Of a DNA stretch of 41,370 bases, positions 2,113 to 11,920 are shown piece by piece. The notes below the pieces were generated by a model. It searched no databases. It had not been told where the DNA came from and worked only from the letters and a program-made list of their open reading frames with translations. The DNA comes from an uncultured Opitutia bacterium (GTDB lineage Bacteria; Verrucomicrobiota; Verrucomicrobiia; Opitutales; Opitutaceae): positions 1 through 41,370 of the forward strand of contig CAIRTK010000038.1 in the NCBI GenBank assembly GCA_903881475.1, in the 5' to 3' direction. The position numbers were made by a program, and so were the translations under genes. Numbering within the stretch: the stretch's first letter is position 1; every line of letters begins with the position of its first letter.

Positions 2113-2277
2113 CTTTCAGTCAGGATCATCGAAGTCCGCTTGTTCCGCCAGTTGGATGGCGGCGAATCCTCCGGATGAGCCGGGTCGCGCGGCTCGTCGA
2201 GAGCGACGCGCCCTGCCTCTGAGCCAATGCCGCTCCGGCGTTGCCAATACCCCCTTCCCGTCCGAACCTCAGTCGCC

Positions 2278-3087
2278 ATGCATGTCAGCGGCCTGTTTCT
2301 CTATCCCGTAAAATCGCTGCGCGGCCTGGCGGTGACTTCCGCCGAAATCGACGCCCTCGGTTTCGTCGGAGACCGGCGCTTCATGGTGGTGGATGAGCAG
2401 GGCCAGTTCCTTACCCAGCGCACCCTGCCCCGCATGGCGCTGATCGAAACCGCGCTCAGCGCGCGGGAACTGATCCTCCACACCGACCAAGGCGGCTCCT
2501 GTGCGGTGCCGCTGCAGGCCACAGCGCCCACCCGAATCATCCCGGTCCGCGTCTGGAAAAGCGAAGGCCTGCTCGCCGAGGATTGCGGTGCGGAAGTCGC
2601 CGCCTGGCTCTCCGATTTTCTCCGCGGGCCCTCCCGCCTCGTCCGGATCGGCACGCAGTTCACGCGGCCGATCCTGAAACCCGGCAACGCACAGCCCGGC
2701 GACATCGTGAATTTCGCCGACGGCTATCCCTTTCTCGTGATCAGCGAGGCCTCGCTCGCGGACCTTAATGCCCGCCTCACCGCCCCGCTGCCCATGAATC
2801 GTTTCCGCCCGAGCTTCATGGTGGCCGGCTGCGAGGCCTTCGCCGAAGACACCTGGACTCGTTTTCAGGCCGGCGGCATCACCTTCCGCACCGCCGGCCC
2901 GTGCGCCCGCTGCGTGGTCACCACTACCGACCAGCTCACCGCCGAGCGCGGCAAGGAGCCGCTGCGCACCCTCGCCACCTACCGCCGCGACCCCGAGGAC
3001 CCGACCGACGTCAATTTCGGCCAGAACCTGATCCACGAAACCAAGTCCGGTACCCTCCGCCTCGGCGACCGGATCGTTCTGATTTAA
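2278..3087 (+). CDS. MOSC domain-containing protein (YcbX-like)
   Basis: MOSC-family protein of 269 aa, related to molybdenum-cofactor sulfurase C-terminal domains and to bacterial YcbX/mARC-type proteins that use Moco to reduce N-hydroxylated compounds. Start ATG 2278 gives MHVSGLFLYPVKSLRG, the canonical beginning of the MOSC N-terminal beta-barrel. The conserved FLTQRTLPRMALI segment follows at about residues 43-55. The MOSC core ends with GPCARCVVTTTDQ (about 206-218), where the second Cys is the family's predicted Moco ligand, then FGQN near the end. No YcbX-type ferredoxin domain is fused, so an electron-transfer partner would have to be separate. The frame remains open upstream to 2227 but has no family similarity there. 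Confidence 0.88.
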   Translation: MHVSGLFLYPVKSLRGLAVTSAEIDALGFVGDRRFMVVDEQGQFLTQRTLPRMALIETALSARELILHTDQGGSCAVPLQATAPTRIIPVRVWKSEGLLAEDCGAEVAAWLSDFLRGPSRLVRIGTQFTRPILKPGNAQPGDIVNFADGYPFLVISEASLADLNARLTAPLPMNRFRPSFMVAGCEAFAEDTWTRFQAGGITFRTAGPCARCVVTTTDQLTAERGKEPLRTLATYRRDPEDPTDVNFGQNLIHETKSGTLRLGDRIVLI

Positions 3088-3129: not shown

Positions 3130-3762
3130 ATGATCAAGCACCTCAGAATCCCTCTGTTGGCCAGCATCAGCTTCGCCGCGTTCCTGATCGGCCATGCCCA
3201 AACCTCATCCGCGACCGTTGAGGGCACAACGGGCGGTCACTCCTTCCTGCATGTGATGCAGTTTGCCAACGCACTGGGTCTCACCCCTGCCCAGCAGGCC
3301 CAATTCCGGGCCATCCGCACCCAAGAGGAAATTGCGCTCAGGGCGATCCGATCGGACACCGATCCCGATTCCGCGCAACGCCGCAACGAAGCGGAGGCTA
3401 CATATCAGCACTATGACGCCCAACGGGAGGCACTGCTGACTCCGGAACAGCGGGCGACGCTTTGGCGGTACTTTGAGCACGCTCAGACTGAGCAGGTCAC
3501 CAAAACCCAAATAAAATACTCCTTGTCGTGGCTCGCACATGAGCTGGGGCTGAGTCCCGGACAAATTGACGCGTTTCGGACCCAGCGTGAACAGGAAGAG
3601 GTCGCGCTTCGGGCCATCCATGACAATCCTGCCCTCACCTATCAGGAGAAGTATGGGGAGGTCGAAGCCATCCGCATTCAATCCATCGCCCAAAGGGAAC
3701 AATTATTGACCCCCGAGCAGCTCGCCAAATTCCAACGCATGCACGCGGCCGGTAAAATATAG
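3130..3762 (+). CDS. Secreted protein with two Spy-like (LTxxQ) repeats
   Basis: A 210-aa exported protein of unknown function. Residues 1-23 form a signal peptide (Lys/Arg start, hydrophobic core, cleavage around GHA-Q). The mature part is two tandem copies of one helical unit (about 40-118 and 130-207). Each copy opens with LGLTPAQ or LGLSPGQ, continues with QEEIALRAI or QEEVALRAI, and ends with QREALLTPEQ or QREQLLTPEQ. The LTPxQ motif and helical, charged composition recall the periplasmic Spy/CpxP chaperone family, but with an internal duplication. It is less GC-rich than its neighbours. Upstream is the small palindromic sequence ATGCATGCTGCAT. A chaperone role is inference only. Confidence 0.72.
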   Translation: MIKHLRIPLLASISFAAFLIGHAQTSSATVEGTTGGHSFLHVMQFANALGLTPAQQAQFRAIRTQEEIALRAIRSDTDPDSAQRRNEAEATYQHYDAQREALLTPEQRATLWRYFEHAQTEQVTKTQIKYSLSWLAHELGLSPGQIDAFRTQREQEEVALRAIHDNPALTYQEKYGEVEAIRIQSIAQREQLLTPEQLAKFQRMHAAGKI

Positions 3763-3875
3763 GCACTTGGATCAGGTCTAAGATACTGGCGAGTCACTCG
3801 CTCCCCACCCGTCCGCGCGGCGGCTTGGTGCCGGCCCGGTGCTCCCCGGACTCGATCAGCCGGTTAGGAGCCCGC

Positions 3876-4286
3876 TCATGCCAACTCCGCTTGCACGCGC
3901 TTCCTCATGTCGGTGTAGGCCGCATCGATGAGCTTCATCAAAGCCATGGCATCGATGTCATCTCCGGGCCTGAGCTTCACGTGACGCATGAACTTTCCTG
4001 TGCCTTCCAACAGGCCCTTCGGATCGGCAATCTCGGCACCTCGAAAAAATCCGACATTCACGTGGGCTTTGAAGGCGTTAACGTATCCGAAACCCGCGTC
4101 AGCGATGCACGCCGTGGGATGGCCGTCATGCAGTAGTTCCCGCACATCGTCGCCGCGCCCACGCATGACTTCAAACCAATGCCGGGCGATACCACCCAGT
4201 TCGCGCGGCTGCCTCTTCATCCAGGCCTCGATGGCCGGATCCCGCTGAACCGAACCGGTGAACCGCAAGAGCTGGGTTGTTTTCAT
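3876..4286 (-). CDS. DUF1801 family protein (YdhG-like)
   Basis: A 136-aa cytosolic protein. The pattern FxxxRGRGDDVRELLHDGHPTACI, followed by FGYVNAFKAHVNVGFFRGAEI and LLEGTGKFMRHVKL, is the DUF1801/YdhG fold seen in many small stand-alone proteins of unknown function. It starts at ATG 4286. It lies downstream of, and on the same strand as, the broken release-factor-like gene. The region between it and the Spy-like gene (3763-3875) holds nothing I recognise. Confidence 0.75.
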   Translation of the reverse strand: MKTTQLLRFTGSVQRDPAIEAWMKRQPRELGGIARHWFEVMRGRGDDVRELLHDGHPTACIADAGFGYVNAFKAHVNVGFFRGAEIADPKGLLEGTGKFMRHVKLRPGDDIDAMALMKLIDAAYTDMRKRVQAELA

Positions 4287-4397: not shown

Positions 4398-4686
4398 TCA
4401 ATCCATCCCCACCCGCCCGCGTTGCGATTTGACGCCCGCCCGGCGTTTTTTCGACTCGATCATCCGGACTTTCTGCCCGCGGCTTTTCTGGCGGTGACGG
4501 CGGCGGTTCCTTTCGCGTTCATCTGCCCGCGCCGCTTCGACCGCGCGCTGATGCGCCTCCAGCTTCGCGCACAACTCGGCCCAGGCAATTTCGCGATTCG
4601 CGGCCTGTGACCGCTCCCGCTGGCAACGCACCTCGATCCCCGTCGGCCGGTGTCGCAGCCAGACCGTGGACGAGGTCTTGTTGATT
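4398..4686 (-). pseudogene. C-terminal part of a split RF-1-domain (release-factor-like) gene
   Basis: Reading leftwards from 4686, the frame encodes INKTSSTVWLRHRPTGIEVR and on to a Lys/Arg-rich tail, stopping at TGA 4400-4398. This is the second part of an RF-1 domain protein (stand-alone GGQ-type peptidyl-tRNA hydrolase/ribosome rescue family, as in ArfB or mtRF-R). The GGQ motif itself and everything before it are missing, and upstream sequence is unrelated. The missing half, ending in GSGPGGQKI, is found at 8903-9006 on the same strand. Placing the halves together restores GGQKINKTSS, the family consensus. A GTG at 4631 could start a 77-aa product, but it would lack the catalytic loop. 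Confidence 0.85.
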
Positions 4687-4981
4687 AACGGAGCTCCCGC
4701 GGCCTAAGACACCGGTCTACGCGGAATTCGCGGTTGGCTTTTCCCAATCCTTGGATTTTGCAACAGCCCGAAATCGAGTTCTGCGCCTCGTGTGTGATCT
4801 TAGGAGGACGACGTCACAGCAATGACGTTGCGCGCGGTCGGTCGCCGGACGGATACAGCAGGGCTTGGGGACGGCGACGAAGGCGCCCTCGTTCGTTGTC
4901 TCATTTTGTGAAAGGCGTCTTTCGGTGTTCATCTCCCCGACGAGCGATTGCGAACGGTCGACAGGTCCCCGTGCGAATACT

Positions 4982-6145
4982 TTACGGCGACGTTGGAGCG
5001 GATGACGGCAAAGCGTCATCGAAAAATGACCGAAGGTTGCCTGCAGTTAGCGCGATCTGCCTCGGGCCGTCGATCTCTACCATTCCTAAGCGCCGCAGAA
5101 CACCGATGACGAGGTGGCTTTTCAGCCGCGCACCGTCGTCGCTGAAAAAAAAGTGGTTCGCACCCGGAATCGTTACGAGCTTCCTCGTCGCCGCAGGAAG
5201 CCGGCCATACACCGCCTGGATATCGTGCATGATGGCGGTCGATTGGGGATCATCTTCCCGGTGGTGATCGCCGAGCAGGAACATGAACGGTCGACTGATC
5301 GCGGCATTTGCTGTGCTGCCAAACATTCCGCCGTCGATGTCTACACCGGCACGACAGCGCGGATCATTCACGCAGAACTGCGCGGCAGCGGTGCCACCGA
5401 ACGAGTGACCGAAGACGCCCACCCGGCCGAGATCGAGCCGTCCGGTGAAGAGGCCTGTCGGGTCCGAAACGTTCAGGCGCGTTAGATGATCGGTGGCGCG
5501 GCTCAGGTCGCGAGTCCAAGCGTCGATCAGTCGTTGAATGGTGGCATCGTCGTGGCGTTCAGCCGCTAATTCCGGATCGTTTTCAGGGGGGCGAGTCGCA
5601 ACAGCCCCGTTCGCCATCACGACGGTTTTCGTGCGGTAGGGAATATCGAATCCGACGACGACGTAACCGTAACTCGCGAGATTTTCGGCTAGCGTCGTAT
5701 AATTCCATATGGGCGCCGAGGCGCCGCCACGCATCAACAACACCGGAAATGATCGGGGCGTGGGAGCCAGCGGGGCTCCGTCGACGCTGTGCACCCGGAC
5801 TTTGGAGACGTCCCGGGTAACCAGGTTGATTAACCACCCCTGATTGCGCATGACCGCGGCAGACAACTCGGTTGGCAGAAAGAGGCTCGTTTTTCCTGGT
5901 TCGGAATGACCGGTAGCTGGATACCATATCCAAGCGATTAGTTGCTGCTCATTCGGGGCCGGCGGTGGTTCTGACCAAACGAGGTGAACCCGCCCGACGG
6001 CATAAGGTCCCGGCGGCGGAGGAAGGACAGTTTCGAAACGGTGCTCGATCCACAAAGCGGCGATCAACACCGTGACGCCCGCTGCGAACAGCGCGATTAC
6101 ACGAGTTATAATGGCAAGCCACCGTCGCCGTTTCCAGAAAACCAT
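4982..6145 (-). CDS. Membrane-anchored alpha/beta hydrolase (PAF-acetylhydrolase/dienelactone-hydrolase-like)
   Basis: Predicted serine hydrolase of about 387 aa. I prefer start ATG 6145 (MVFWKRRRW), because this puts a basic stretch directly before one transmembrane helix (WLAIITRVIALFAAGVTVLI). The frame is open to an ATG at 6289. The catalytic domain has the strand VGFDIPYR, the nucleophile elbow GHSFGG (Ser), VDIDGGMFG after it, a plausible acid in FLLGDHHREDD, and the catalytic His in GANHFFFSDD. This order matches the PAF-acetylhydrolase isoform-II/dienelactone hydrolase superfamily. The enzyme probably faces the periplasm. Its substrate is unknown. It lies within the inserted islet, on the same strand as the SDR gene. 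Confidence 0.8.
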   Translation of the reverse strand: MVFWKRRRWLAIITRVIALFAAGVTVLIAALWIEHRFETVLPPPPGPYAVGRVHLVWSEPPPAPNEQQLIAWIWYPATGHSEPGKTSLFLPTELSAAVMRNQGWLINLVTRDVSKVRVHSVDGAPLAPTPRSFPVLLMRGGASAPIWNYTTLAENLASYGYVVVGFDIPYRTKTVVMANGAVATRPPENDPELAAERHDDATIQRLIDAWTRDLSRATDHLTRLNVSDPTGLFTGRLDLGRVGVFGHSFGGTAAAQFCVNDPRCRAGVDIDGGMFGSTANAAISRPFMFLLGDHHREDDPQSTAIMHDIQAVYGRLPAATRKLVTIPGANHFFFSDDGARLKSHLVIGVLRRLGMVEIDGPRQIALTAGNLRSFFDDALPSSAPTSP

Positions 6146-6483
6146 CCAATCAGTGTGCCACCTGATTGTGAAGCCGTGATGAAGCGGTGGTGAAGTCACG
6201 ATGAAATCTGCGTGACGGAAGTCGGAAGGGTCAACTTCACTATTATGCTCGGTGGCGGCATCAGAACCGTCACGCTTTTGCCCCGTCAAGGAGGCACCCC
6301 GACGGACGCATACGTTTCAACCACTGAGCAGGAGACGGATTCATAAGAACACCACGTGCTGGAGCATTGCCGGGTTCGCGGCTGGATGGATCCTCTGATA
6401 ATCCGAGATTCAGCGTCCGGTGTCAGCACGAGCCGACCCGGGCTCGAAACCATTCCGACGCACGTGCGGGCCGGTCGGGTCCT

Positions 6484-7437
6484 TCAGGTTGTAGACAAGC
6501 CCACGCCAGAGACCTTGACGACGGCCTTCCAAGCGGCTTCCTGGTTTACTCGGTCGTGTAGGTGTGGGTGGCGCTGCGCCTCAATTGGGCCTGAGAACTT
6601 CCCTTGAGCCGAGGCGAAGAATTGCCCTGAGACGTCGGTTCCGAACTCCGACGCCTGGAGGTAGCGACGGGCGGCGGTCTCAGGCGTCTGATTCATGCCG
6701 GGGATGAGGTTCGCAATTGGGATAAACAGATACTTCACGGCCAGGCTAGCTTGTCTCGAAACCTTGGTAGCGGTCGCGGCACCGGGCGACACGGCGTATA
6801 CGGCCATGCCGGAGGGTAGCCGGCGGGCCAGCGCCGCGGCCCACCAAGCGATAATGAGCTTCGCGTCGGCATACGAATTGTTGGGCACGTATTTCACGTT
6901 CGGCCCGTTGCGAATCAGGGCTTCCACCGCGGCGGTTCGGTCACCCTGGTGGTATTTGGCCGCGAAGGCTGGCACGTCGGTGTAGTTGAACATGGGGACG
7001 CCCCCTCGGGCAGGCTCCGCGCCGGCGATAACAATCCGCGCGTTGGGGCTCAGCAGGTTGGCGCGAAGCAAGCCGACAGTCAGTTGATGATGGCCGATCA
7101 GCGGGGCCTGAGACGCCTCGACGCCCGCCGCAGTGAGCACGCGCGCCTTGCCAGGGACCATCCCTGCATTGAGCAGTAGAAAATCGATTGGCCGACCTCG
7201 CTTAACCAGCTCGGCGAGGGCGAAATGAACGCTGGCCGGCGTGTCCAGATCCATCTCCAGCGGCGTGAAAACCGGTGTCTTCGTCTCAGCCATGAGTTGA
7301 GCGGCCGTTTCCTTGATCCGGGCTAGGCTGCGCCCGGTGATGATGATCTCGCGCCAGCCTTCGGCGGCGAGCAAGCGGGCTGCCGCGTGACCGAGTCCGG
7401 AGGTCGTGCCGGTGACGAGCACGATTGAATGTTTCAT
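6484..7437 (-). CDS. Short-chain dehydrogenase/reductase (SDR)
   Basis: Classical SDR oxidoreductase of 317 aa. The cofactor-binding TGTTSGLG motif is at residues 10-17, followed by ITGRS (Arg suggests NADP(H) preference). DLDTPAS lies in the adenine-binding loop and LLLNAG is the NAG motif. IVIAGAEP stands at the usual Ser position, and the active-site YADAK motif is present. The canonical catalytic Ser is therefore not obvious, as in some plant protochlorophyllide-reductase-like SDRs. A good ribosome site (GGAGA) lies before ATG 7437. It is divergent from the TetR gene with 142 bp between them, so it is the likely regulated target. The substrate is unknown. Confidence 0.88.
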   Translation of the reverse strand: MKHSIVLVTGTTSGLGHAAARLLAAEGWREIIITGRSLARIKETAAQLMAETKTPVFTPLEMDLDTPASVHFALAELVKRGRPIDFLLLNAGMVPGKARVLTAAGVEASQAPLIGHHQLTVGLLRANLLSPNARIVIAGAEPARGGVPMFNYTDVPAFAAKYHQGDRTAAVEALIRNGPNVKYVPNNSYADAKLIIAWWAAALARRLPSGMAVYAVSPGAATATKVSRQASLAVKYLFIPIANLIPGMNQTPETAARRYLQASEFGTDVSGQFFASAQGKFSGPIEAQRHPHLHDRVNQEAAWKAVVKVSGVGLSTT

Positions 7438-7510
7438 GGGCGTCTCCGTGGTGAGGGGGACGTTACTGCTGTTTTTCCTTTGAACCGATCCATGTTGTCT
7501 CCTGTGTTTA

Positions 7511-7531
7511 TCTGTCTTGAAGTATTACAGA
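7511..7531. promoter_or_regulatory. Candidate TetR operator
   Basis: Short inverted repeat TCTGT-N11-ACAGA in the AT-rich gap between the divergent SDR and TetR genes. Its position suits an autoregulatory operator, but the arms are only 5 bp, so chance is possible. Confidence 0.25.
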
Positions 7532-7579
7532 CCCTAAAGTACGTTAATCAAAGCTGCAAGGCCAGGAGTTTCTTACGCA

Positions 7580-8191
7580 ATGGTAACTAATCTTTCAAAG
7601 CGCGCCAGAGGGCGTCCCAGAGCCTTTATCCCCGATGAAGCACTCGACCGTGCCGTTGAGATGTTTTGGGAGAACGGGTACGAAGGCGTCGACGTGGATC
7701 GGATCGCGCGCGCCGTGAACGTCACCAAACCCGCGCTATACCGAGCCTTCGGAGACAAGCCCACCCTGCTGCTCAAGGCGGTCGAGCGCTATGCCCTGAC
7801 GTATGGGGCTCCCAGAATGGCAGCATTTCAAGCGGAGCCTGACATCCGTAAGGCCGTGACCGCCTTTTTCGAGGCCGCTGTCAACAGCGCTACGGGCGAG
7901 GCTCGTGGCGGCTGCATGATGGTCGCTGCCGCGCTGGGACAGTCGGAGCGAGTTGATGAGATCCGTTCCTTTTTCGCGAAGAGCCTCAACGCGAGCGCCA
8001 ATGCGTTCGCGCAAAGGTTCGAGCGGGAAATGAAGGCAGGGAATCTGACGAGCACGCCCTCGGCCCGGGTGCGAGGCCATGCGTTCATCGACCTGATTCA
8101 GGGTCTGCGGCTTCGCGCCAAGGCCGGTATTGCGCGCGAACAATTGCTGCAGGACGCCCGAAGCTATGTGCCCCTGATTCTGGGCAAGTAA
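7580..8191 (+). CDS. TetR/AcrR family transcriptional regulator
   Basis: A 203-aa repressor. The N-terminal helix-turn-helix runs from RPRAFIPDEALDRAVEMF through GVDVDRIARAVNVTKPALYRAFGDK (residues about 13-58), the standard TetR DNA-binding domain. The C-terminal helices form the ligand-binding and dimer part, with GGCMMVAAAL about residues 110-120, as in the YxaF/AcrR_C-type subgroup. A ribosome site AGGAG precedes ATG 7580. It is transcribed away from the SDR gene and probably represses it and itself. The ligand is unknown. It lies in the inserted islet, whose non-coding parts are AT-richer than the rest of the window. Confidence 0.92.
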   Translation: MVTNLSKRARGRPRAFIPDEALDRAVEMFWENGYEGVDVDRIARAVNVTKPALYRAFGDKPTLLLKAVERYALTYGAPRMAAFQAEPDIRKAVTAFFEAAVNSATGEARGGCMMVAAALGQSERVDEIRSFFAKSLNASANAFAQRFEREMKAGNLTSTPSARVRGHAFIDLIQGLRLRAKAGIAREQLLQDARSYVPLILGK

Positions 8192-8464
8192 ATCGAACGC
8201 ACTTCTCGGCGGGGATGCGTCCGGACGAGTGCCAAATCGCCAACGCGCTTATCAAATGGCGCGTTTCAAATAGGACCGATTCTGCAACGATGACTCAGCG
8301 AGCCTTGATGTGCGTTAGGGTGTTCATCCCGACAAGGGGGGCGTTTTTGAAACAGAGGATTTCAGCCGCCGCGGCTTCATGAGAAAAGGGCTGTCCCTCG
8401 CTTCCCCTACTCCTATGCCAAGGCGGCAAGCCTGGCAGCAACTCCTCGCAGAAGACGGAAATCG

Positions 8465-8851
8465 TCAGTCTCTTTCTGGCCGACCTCTCTGGACCTTGAT
8501 ACCCGCGCGATGCTTCTTGGATTGAATCATGCGGATCTTCTGGCCGCGGGATTTTTGCCGGTTTCTGCGGCGTCCTTGCTCTCGTTCATCCGTTTGCTTG
8601 GCCCGTTCCGCGCGTTGCCGCTCTTCCAACTTCGCGCACAGCTCTGTCCAGGCCAGTTCGCGATTAGCCGACTGCGAGCGCTCCCGCTGGCATCTCGTCT
8701 CGACGCCGGTCGGACGATGACGCAGCCACACACAGGAACTCGTCTTCTGCAGCTTTTGCCCGCCGTGACCCGAGCCGAGGATGAATCGTTCATCCACGTC
8801 CGAGGCCCGCACCCCGAGAGCCGCCAATCTGACTTCAATTGCCTTGTTCAT
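8465..8851 (-). CDS. RF-1 domain release-factor-like protein (intact copy)
   Basis: Complete 128-aa stand-alone RF-1 domain protein. It has the catalytic GSGHGGQK loop at residues 27-34, then QKTSSCVWLRHRPTG and RCQRERSQSANRELAW, and a very basic tail ending RGQKIRMIQSKKHRAGIK. Such proteins (ArfB/YaeJ, mtRF-R) hydrolyse peptidyl-tRNA on stalled ribosomes; the tail reaches into the mRNA channel. It is clearly related to, but not identical with, the split gene around the islet, for example MNKAIEVRLAALG against MNQAVEARLAALG. It lies just inside the right edge of the islet, so it can replace the lost function. The gap to the TetR gene (8192-8464) has no clear content. Confidence 0.85.
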   Translation of the reverse strand: MNKAIEVRLAALGVRASDVDERFILGSGHGGQKLQKTSSCVWLRHRPTGVETRCQRERSQSANRELAWTELCAKLEERQRAERAKQTDEREQGRRRNRQKSRGQKIRMIQSKKHRAGIKVQRGRPERD

Positions 8852-8902
8852 CGGTGGAGATCTGACGGCGGCACAGAAACAGTAGGAATCGACTTGGATA
8901 TC

Positions 8903-9006
8903 TTGATTTTTTGTCCGCCCGGCCCGGAGCCGCGGACAAAGCTCTCCACCACCTCCCGGCTGCTAAGTCCCAGGGCGGCCAATCTGGCTTCAACGGCTTG
9001 GTTCAT
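8903..9006 (-). pseudogene. N-terminal part of the split RF-1-domain gene
   Basis: From ATG 9006 the frame encodes MNQAVEARLAALGLSSREVV and then ESFVRGSGPGGQKI, that is the start and GGQ loop of an RF-1 domain protein. It then runs into unrelated residues (KISKSIPT and on) and stops at 8848. The matching C-terminal part is 4.2 kb away at 4398-4686. The reading frame is open upstream of 9006, but family similarity begins there. The gene originally lay about 100 bp downstream of the FAD-linked oxidase. Confidence 0.85.
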
Positions 9007-9108: not shown

Positions 9109-10533
9109 TCAGCCGTACAGGAATCGCGGCAGGCTGGAGGCCAGGGCCGGGGCGACCGGAAATCCCTTCATCTTCCCGGGGTTGAGCAGGCCCTTGGGAT
9201 CAGCCTCCTGCTTGAGCGAGACTTGGGCCGCGGATCCGTTGCCGCGCCCGCCTTCCTCGAGGTAGCAGGTGTGCGGGTTGCTGCTGGAAATGCCCAGCTC
9301 GGCGGCATAGGCGATGACCTCGCGCAGGTGATCCTCGCTCACGAATTCCACCACAGGAATGAGCACGGGGATCACCAGCCCAAACTCGCCGGTTGGGTGG
9401 TGGCCGCGCACAAATTCGAAGTGGAGGTGGATCTGGCCGGGAAAGCGCGCCTGCAGTTGAGCCGCCTGCTCCGCGAAATTCGGCCCCATGCCCAGCTGCA
9501 GATAGGTGTGCCCCGGGTGGCTCTTGAGCATCCACAGCGTGCTGTGGTTCCAACCGTACTCCATGAGCATCGGCTGCCGCTTGGGCTCATGATGAGGGAT
9601 GACGAGCGGAACATGCAGCCCCTTCAGCCGGGCCTCGCCCACGACCGCCTCCGTGAACGATTGATCCACCTCCAGCCAGATGAAGGCATGCCCCTCCGGC
9701 AGCCACTTGCGCAGCGGCTTGAAACTGGCGCCGAAGCTCGGCTCGAGGAGCGACATCAGGCGCTTGGGGATCGCATCGTCATACGCCACGCAGCGGGCGA
9801 AGGCGGTGACCTCCTCCCAGTCCGGGCCGGTGACGACGATCTGGTCCCAGCGGCGGGCCGGCGCGAGGCGGAGCTGCAACTCGATGATCACCCCGTTGGT
9901 GCCGTAGGCGTGAAACGCCCGCAGGGTCTCGGATTCCTCAAGGACGATCTCCCGCGGCTCGGCTTCCATGGTGAGGAGCTTGAGCCGCTTGATGGTACCG
10001 GGCTCCCGCAGGCCTCCCCAGGTAATCGACCCGATGCCGGCGCTCCCTCCGGAAATGAATCCCCCGATCGTGGATTTTACCCACGTGGACGGCAGGCACC
10101 GCATCTCCCAGCCCACGGCCCGCACCGCCCGCTCCAGGTTGATCACCCGCACGCCCGGCTCGGTTGTCACCACCCCGTCCTCGATCCCGATGATTTGATC
10201 CAGCCCGGTGATATCAATGACCAGCCCGCCGCTCAGGGGAATGCATTGCCCATAGTTGCCCGTGGCACCGCCCCGCACGGTGACCGGCAGCTCATGCCGG
10301 TAGGCCAGCGCCAGGACCCGCTTGAGTTCCTGGACCGAACCCACCTTCACCACCGCGGAAGCGTTCCGCGGCTCCAAACGCGCCTTCAAGACCGGCGAAT
10401 ACCAGTAGCAGTCTTTCGACAGCGTTTCGACCTCGGCCTGGGTGGAAATCACCTGGTCATAGCCGACCAAGGTCTGAAGTTCTTCCAGCAGGGCGGAATC
10501 AACGGTGACAAATCCAGGAGTTGGCTGGGACAT
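9109..10533 (-). CDS. FAD-binding oxidoreductase (PCMH-type, GlcD-like)
   Basis: Flavoprotein of 474 aa from ATG 10533 (MSQPTPGFV). The PCMH-type FAD-binding domain is clear: VSTQAEV and RNASAVVKVGSVQELKRVLALA, then PVTVRGGATGNYGQCIPLSGG (the GGxTGN phosphate loop), then IGGFISGGSAGIGSITWG. The C-terminal half carries HLHFEFVRGHHPTGEFG and ends with the cap-domain signature KQEADPKGLLNPGKMKGF, as in glycolate and D-lactate oxidases. It probably oxidises a hydroxy acid, substrate unknown. There are no fused iron-sulfur clusters. An upstream open frame to 10611 lacks similarity and is not included. Confidence 0.85.
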   Translation of the reverse strand: MSQPTPGFVTVDSALLEELQTLVGYDQVISTQAEVETLSKDCYWYSPVLKARLEPRNASAVVKVGSVQELKRVLALAYRHELPVTVRGGATGNYGQCIPLSGGLVIDITGLDQIIGIEDGVVTTEPGVRVINLERAVRAVGWEMRCLPSTWVKSTIGGFISGGSAGIGSITWGGLREPGTIKRLKLLTMEAEPREIVLEESETLRAFHAYGTNGVIIELQLRLAPARRWDQIVVTGPDWEEVTAFARCVAYDDAIPKRLMSLLEPSFGASFKPLRKWLPEGHAFIWLEVDQSFTEAVVGEARLKGLHVPLVIPHHEPKRQPMLMEYGWNHSTLWMLKSHPGHTYLQLGMGPNFAEQAAQLQARFPGQIHLHFEFVRGHHPTGEFGLVIPVLIPVVEFVSEDHLREVIAYAAELGISSSNPHTCYLEEGGRGNGSAAQVSLKQEADPKGLLNPGKMKGFPVAPALASSLPRFLYG

Positions 10534-10954
10534 AATCGGCAGGGAAGGCGGTTTGGGTAAGAGTGCTGGCACGTGTCCGACGCACCTTGCATCGGGGTCG
10601 GCCAGCCACAAAACGTGAAGCGTAGATCATGCCTGCAACCGGCGGGCCGGAGACTATTAGCCGCCCGCTCCTATAGGACAAAATCCGACCGGCCCGAAGT
10701 CGGGCGCAACTTGGCCGCCAAGAGATCGGGATATCTGGCGCCGTGCGATCTTCGCAGAGCCGCCGCCTGGTTTTTTCCTGACCCTGCGATATTTAGGTCT
10801 CACTCCGAAGCCCAGCCGTCACCGGGCATCATTCCGGGAAGCCCGCCACCGGCCGATTTGAGGTGGCAAAGGCATCGGGGCGGCTTTTTCCTGATGGAAA
10901 CTTATTCCCGGCCCCGCAGTCAAACCAGCCCCATCTCCTCCCCTCTCTTTTCCC
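10534..10954. other. Intergenic region between FAD oxidase and moxR
   Basis: A 421-bp gap between two divergent genes, so it must hold both promoters. I see no strong sigma-70 pair, repeat or small gene. Short AT-rich patches occur near 10670-10690 and 10787-10800, and a CT-rich leader precedes the moxR ATG. Confidence 0.4.

Positions 10955-11918
<964 letters not shown>

Positions 11919-11920
<2 letters not shown>

Follow-up and report, generated by a model that had tools for sequence, protein, structure and literature searches.

Nested remnants of a small RF-1-domain gene beside MoxR in Opitutaceae suggest serial displacement in situ

Some integrative elements restore the gene that they enter. 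When a foreign ortholog replaces a resident gene in place, the evidence is commonly a tree, and little trace of the process is left. Passages of PMC1274311 describe such in-situ xenologous gene displacement (XGD) for the ribosomal proteins L30 and L15 of Thermus thermophilus, where displacement was inferred from trees, and passages of PMC6514570 describe a C12orf65 / ArfB / PrfH group of RF-1-domain rescue factors and a sporadic, horizontally spread prfH/RFH-RtcB unit. Here we describe a release factor (RF)-like gene in a 41,370-nucleotide stretch of DNA (the window), which is contig C38 of the 3.2 Mb genome of an uncultured Opitutia bacterium (GCA_903881475.1, CAIRTK010000038.1); the word window also names its RF locus beside the L-numbered loci of relatives, whose genomes carry G numbers. 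An earlier reading of this DNA (the original prediction) had described an RF-like gene split by a segment that carries an intact copy. The case is a well-preserved and unusual serial in-situ gene displacement, and the phenomenon is larger than had been described: comparison of sequences among relatives indicates, with high confidence on our part, that the RF gene itself has been displaced in situ, and serially, beside a gene for a MoxR-type ATPase in Opitutaceae. No publication on nested RF displacement was found in our literature searches.

The RF gene encodes both an RF-1 domain and a GGQ motif. Its protein falls below the NCBIfam cut-offs for prfA, prfB, prfH and ArfB (34.9 bits to the ArfB model NF006718, vs a required 100), and its best match of solved structure, by sequence, is C12orf65 (7a5h, E 1.6e-13). 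It is predicted to be a small RF-1-domain protein of the peptidyl-tRNA-hydrolase and ribosome-rescue type.

Nested RF genes in the window

Both halves of the split gene (4398-4686 and 8903-9006), the TTGATT found at each, and the complete gene at 8465-8851, all on the minus strand, were confirmed, as were the hydrolase, SDR and TetR genes between the halves, by Pfam. Two halves and an intact copy are not the whole structure, to which two further RF pieces belong (3794-3865 and about 10849-10875). The outer broken gene is here called RF0, the inner broken gene RF1 and the intact gene RF2, and N- and C-terminal pieces are called heads and tails. RF2 is of a type, type 2, that has GGQK(L/I)QKTSS where native genes have GGQKINKTSS. 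On the minus strand, moving away from MoxR, the order is RF0 head, FAD oxidase, RF1 head, junction, RF2, TetR (plus strand), SDR, hydrolase, RF1 tail, DUF1801, RF0 tail, LTXXQ-like gene and MOSC:

10955..11920, plus strand: MoxR-type AAA ATPase (Pfam AAA_3), the conserved head-side flank, which adjoins the RF gene in most loci read
10849..10875 (about), minus strand: RF0 head, the opening 8-9 codons (MPLPPQI...) of the older resident; motif 15/16 at -2019 from RF2, with the leader peptide ISFHQEKAAP in front, as in the intact gene of G008
9109..10611, minus strand: FAD-binding oxidase between the RF0 head and the RF1 head (Pfam FAD_binding_4)
8903..9006, minus strand: RF1 head (MNQAVE...GGQKI), 37.2 bits to the RF profile
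8852..8902, minus strand: junction of 51 bases between the RF1 head and RF2, perhaps decayed RF codons; the frame of the RF1 head crosses it and stops with ATGA, where RF2 starts
8465..8851, minus strand: RF2, the intact type-2 RF-1-domain gene (GHGGQKLQKTSSC), identified by Pfam RF-1 (74 bits, cut-off 35) and by the tree
7580..8191, plus strand: TetR-family regulator, cargo (Pfam TetR_N)
6484..7437, minus strand: SDR gene, cargo (Pfam adh_short)
4982..6187, minus strand: alpha/beta hydrolase-type gene, start uncertain, cargo (Pfam PAF-AH_p_II)
4398..4686, minus strand: RF1 tail (INKTSS... to the stop), with no internal stop; 78% identity to the G008 gene, 158.7 bits to the RF profile, Pfam RF-1 60.3 bits (cut-off 35)
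3876..4286, minus strand: DUF1801 gene between the RF1 tail and the RF0 tail (Pfam DUF1801)
3794..3865, minus strand: RF0 tail, the last 23 or so codons, found as a listed repeat; score 84 to the G008 gene vs a maximum of 65 in 300 shuffles, although the profile gives only 11.9 bits (E 0.22)
3130-3762: LTXXQ-like gene (weak, under the Pfam cut-off) between the RF0 tail and MOSC
2227..3087, plus strand: MOSC-domain gene, the tail-side flank (Pfam MOSC)

No tRNA was found in the window. RF2 sits inside the broken RF1, and RF1 sits inside the remains of the older RF0, which is the nesting expected if RF1 with its neighbours broke RF0, and RF2 with its neighbours then broke RF1. Read from the DNA, the order of the pieces shows that RF0 was broken and replaced by RF1, whose neighbours are now the FAD oxidase and DUF1801, and that RF1 was then broken and replaced by RF2, together with the hydrolase, SDR and TetR genes. 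The RF0 break lies at about codon 8, a different place in the gene from the RF1 break. The best match of the RF0 tail is the intact gene of G008, a genome of the same genus, and the RF0 head shares the leader peptide of that gene. RF1 is itself of a displaced type, starting with MN, whereas an M[AP]LP[TP]QI head is usual in the window's genus.

Uninterrupted alleles, for which a search of related genomes had been proposed, were found beside MoxR in relatives, among them G008 and also G070, of the same genus as G027. Whether the complete copy came from another lineage had been asked. The nearest row to RF2 in the tree is G027 of another genus, at 91% identity, supporting an origin of RF2 in another lineage and not by local duplication. 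Neither of the outcomes named beforehand as refuting was seen: relatives retain an intact ancestral gene, and no local duplication is indicated for the copy by the tree. The proposal that a foreign RF gene lies inside the gene that it replaced is supported, both by the origin of this copy and by a second case described below.

Type-2 genes and beheaded residents among relatives

RF genes were matched at E<=1e-20 in 185/252 family genomes (124/165 among good assemblies), a distribution in which the gene seems dispensable, and from these matches we read 121 loci (a first 61 and 60 further). The motif GGQK(L/I)QKTSSC occurred in 12/61 of the first loci, from 8 genera, and in one more (L199) of the 60 further loci; carriers of the same gene type that have names are Opitutae/Opitutaceae records. 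In a tree of 62 rows, the 12 type-2 genes group together (support 92/91, or 99/88 with L040); its bootstrap was not settled, and 29/59 inner branches are open. Across seven genus pairs, the best type-2 identities were 91, 89, 89, 72, 90, 88 and 88%, compared with best native identities of 78, 76, 80, 77, 84, 73 and 81%, so that type-2 genes exceeded native genes in 6/7 pairs, the exception being g1-g26.

Recombination within the RF gene happens, as chimeric sequences show: L097 (G284) joins a native head, in frame, to the body of a type-2 gene, and L098 (G176), which has the native GGQKINKTSSTVW motif, is yet 83% identical to RF2 overall and has a type-2-like C-terminus. We also observed that L199 / L123 (the IMCC26134 complete genome) combines the type-2 motif GRGGQKIQKTSSCVW with a native-like head and no remnant; it may be a chimera or an early form. 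An SSCVWLRH or GGQKxQK signature was also seen in more distant RF genes (L125-L151), 38-62% identical to type 2, from Chlamydiae, Lentisphaerae, Coxiellaceae and other records.

A common layout recurs among type-2 genes. A start of their own is present in ten of the 12, and 10/10 of these are preceded, at 155-161 bases, by the ATG of a beheaded resident gene, whose head is strongly decayed in L099 and L039. In the window and in L043, the beheaded gene is itself of a displaced type, and an older native-type head lies further upstream. Three loci with an MN start and without type 2 look similar, the upstream native head being found by motif in L037 and L053 and by eye only in L051. A profile search recovered RF fragments above 11 bits in 8/12 type-2 loci vs 0/49 others, although it misses short heads such as those in L037 and L053; the 60 further loci, searched over some 3 kb to either side (less where a contig ended), held no second RF fragment at E<=1e-3. 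We rejected as chance a weak RF match on the opposite strand of L054 (E 0.03) and head motifs of 13/16 far upstream in L107 and L052. Among nine testable loci, the leaders in L035, L095 and L100 were nearest to those of their own genus.

In 9/10 loci the end of the head frame is no more than 14 bases from the RF2 start, and in 7 the frame overlaps that start; in L037 a 22-codon head frame ends in ATGA. Translational coupling of the head frame and RF2 is only a suggestion from these positions, because other frames are often open too; the idea of selection on an open leader frame was weakened for the same reason.

L096 (G175, genus g7) provides the second full case. Its head lies beside MoxR, RF2 is followed some 9.6 kb further on by a decayed RF tail, and directly behind that tail are the last 60 residues of an amidase gene. 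This amidase follows the RF gene in 10 uninterrupted loci (L098, L054, L055, L046, L058, L178, L179, L180, L183 and L184), and in part in L195. With its head beside MoxR and its tail beside the amidase, G175 restores the native order and makes a second insertion of the same kind visible. In L094 (G169), of the same genus as G175, the amidase starts about 600 bases behind RF2, with little or no cargo and the tail gone, and a 181-base stretch of 81% identity between L094 and L096 is the end of this amidase gene, which natively stands 3' of RF in several genera. This evidence from G175 and G169 strengthens the case for displacement, but not the case for any particular mechanism.

The genes that accompany RF2 differ from carrier to carrier. 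Behind RF2 lie parts of a molybdopterin dehydrogenase (L093), a peroxidase-domain protein (L095), a sulfatase (L099), a PEP-CTERM protein (L035) and a 3062-residue protein (L039), and no cargo match was found between type-2 carriers apart from the amidase end and the flanking genes (the L094 amidase and three L094 frames at or beyond MOSC were not counted as cargo). In G175, two very long reading frames (1849 and 1125 residues; L096, 411-9054) lie between RF2 and the RF tail, and may be a split cyclic-glucan-synthase-type gene. The SDR gene of the window was found at E<=1e-60 in 1/252 family genomes (its own), and relatives of the FAD oxidase at E<=1e-100 in 40/252. GC content at third codon positions (GC3) is 65-74% in the window cargo and 67% in RF2, compared with 83-88% in the flanking genes MOSC, MoxR, the next two and a gene labelled rmuC; the LTXXQ-like gene, outside the inner islet, shares the lower values (69%), and the FAD oxidase (83%) does not. 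The LTXXQ-like gene, with this low GC3 and no match in the first 40 relatives' loci, is possibly another arrival. In 42 loci without type 2, the RF start lies 86-412 bases from MoxR (median 135), and the gap between RF and MOSC, in 31 of them, ranges from 4 to 6398 bases, indicating that unrelated genes collect behind RF also where type 2 is absent.

Junctions, mechanism and rival explanations

The TTGATT at 4681-4686 and 8903-8908 is the complement of AATCAA in the K-I-N codons of GGQKIN. The two halves had been thought to join exactly through it; the shared TTGATT is there, but the head may run past it as decayed codons. The bases after TTGATT on the head side align, almost in register (shift +3 to +5), to the native codons NKTSSTVWLRH in five related loci, the window (shuffle P 0.077), L035 (0.07), L093 (0.24), L094 (0.06) and L043 (0.02). 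In a gapped test, the score was reached by 0/300 shuffles for L043, by 7/300 each for the window and L094, and by 47-290/300 for the other seven loci, and a third, cruder junction profile score, biased by overlap length, showed no resemblance. Should the decayed codons be real, head and tail would overlap by some ten codons, conserved coding sequence present on both sides would account for the "exact" join, and the type-2 unit would bring with it part of an older, broken RF gene. The evidence does not establish TTGATT as a target-site duplication.

These features may be explained if incoming DNA, with an RF allele that is already interrupted, recombines with the resident gene inside its conserved GGQ codons. 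The recipient would keep its own promoter, start and head, while the body would be replaced by the foreign gene, and such spread would need no integrase. For a while the head would survive as a leader frame that stops at the new start codon; deletion of the tail and decay of the head would come afterwards. Cargo would either ride along or collect in the 3' gap, which is variable also in loci without type 2. Spread by homologous recombination would explain the recipient heads, the common junction and the lack of a recombinase, and ComEC- and DprA-family genes are present in the genome, as in most control genomes. We lean, by a modest degree, toward the joint claim of serial in-situ xenologous displacement plus spread by homologous recombination; how a type-2 gene first arrived inside an RF gene is not explained by this model. 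A bolder formulation, which we offer tentatively and regard as rather doubtful, is that type-2 RF acts as a self-spreading "usurper" allele, which enters its own ortholog time after time, retains the promoter, start codon and head of its victim as a translationally coupled leader (with an ATGA overlap), brings unrelated neighbours with it, and can in turn be usurped, such that the locus would grow by nested layers without a recombinase of its own.

Several observations weigh against displacement spread by recombination. No donor molecule was found, and L104 has neither a head nor a MoxR match in its stretch. The L093 leader is nearest to another genus (0.82 vs 0.66 to its own), and those of the window, L043, L094, L096 and L099 favour neither side. 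Over their last 56 bases, the heads in type-2 loci are no closer among carriers than to native genes; this gives no sign of a recombining donor head common to them, and an insertion point that is fixed would also fit. The head-side alignment gives P 0.37-0.73 in the remaining 5/10 type-2 loci, leaving the reading of the junction as putative decayed RF codons moderately supported. Finally, the window and G175 both have GCTCCGT just before RF homology resumes in the tail, as a fixed left end would.

This last point belongs to the strongest rival, a site-specific mobile element, which we consider unlikely although it deserves attention. Its right end would be the 51-base junction plus RF2 and its left end GCTCCGT, and it would enter AAATC(A/G)A-like RF codons and restore function with its own copy, the recombinase acting in trans or having been lost. 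The constant distance in 10 loci, heads that are not common to carriers, and GCTCCGT at both visible left ends are in its favour, together with RF0 breaks after CAAATCG in the window, L037, L043 and L053, and RF1/RF0 breaks after AAAATCAA-like bases in most type-2 loci. However, no recombinase was found among 10 cargo proteins scanned (3 from the window and 7 from 6 carriers, part of the cargo), nor in the FAD oxidase or DUF1801, and the tyrosine recombinases (PF00589) have 9 matches in the genome and none on this contig, other recombinase families not having been searched. Nor was a carrier found among plasmids, phages or viruses: plasmid and phage records gave only distant RF matches, with the best place below 60% identity in 38/38 and 29/29 records, and none of 74 pattern matches in a viral scan was confirmed. 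Cargo matches between carriers were not found, one carrier has little or no cargo, and the repeat listing held no pair of at least 14 bases with arms at the two ends of the insert, inverted repeats included. A new class of islet targeting the NKTSS codons, as originally proposed, is therefore not established, given that no cargo match was found between type-2 loci, and given the native neighbour about 600 bases behind RF2 in G169, the break of RF0 elsewhere, and a left (tail) side visible in two genomes only; the right side is constant in 10 loci.

A single ancient insertion followed by vertical inheritance and many losses would account for the junction sequence and spacing held in common, but we consider it very unlikely, as type 2 cuts across genera that also hold native genes, its identities exceed theirs in 6/7 genus pairs, and the leaders of L035, L095 and L100 match their own genus. 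A local tandem duplication, in which unrelated insertions disrupted the first copy, has in its favour that RF2 and RF1 lie on the same strand 51 bases apart, and is hardly credible when the tree groups RF2 with other genera and not with the RF1 tail or natives of its own genus, and when a single RF gene is seen in most of the 185 family genomes with a match (the window's genome and G229 are listed with two). An assembly artefact, suggested by the fact that the 11 other type-2 carriers are metagenome-assembled genome records by title, is just as implausible, since 10 genomes, whose record accessions belong to several series, have the same head-plus-type-2 layout.

Comparison with known systems

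Intermediates of gene displacement are preserved here as heads, tails, junctions and chimeras, with two layers in one genome and varied decay in about a dozen relatives, so that the manner in which a foreign ortholog takes the place of a resident gene without disturbing the neighbourhood becomes testable on sequence. The small gene of a putative accessory rescue factor is also a recurrent landing place for unrelated genes.

In common with the C12orf65/ArfB/PrfH group, the protein has an RF-1 domain with GGQ, and it differs in its scores below the family cut-offs and in the type-2 motif GGQK(L/I)QKTSS. The likeness to gene-restoring integrative elements is that a target gene is interrupted and the incomer supplies its function; here, however, the incomer is a whole foreign gene and not a replacement end, the scanned cargo has no recombinase, and the cargo is not conserved. 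The closest parallel is XGD, in which a foreign ortholog takes the place of the resident and the neighbourhood is unmoved: RF2 has an origin in another lineage, by tree and identities, and occupies the same chromosomal place, beside MoxR and among the remnants of the resident. The present case differs from XGD in that broken pieces of the displaced genes remain beside the newcomer, in two layers, and in that unrelated genes came too.

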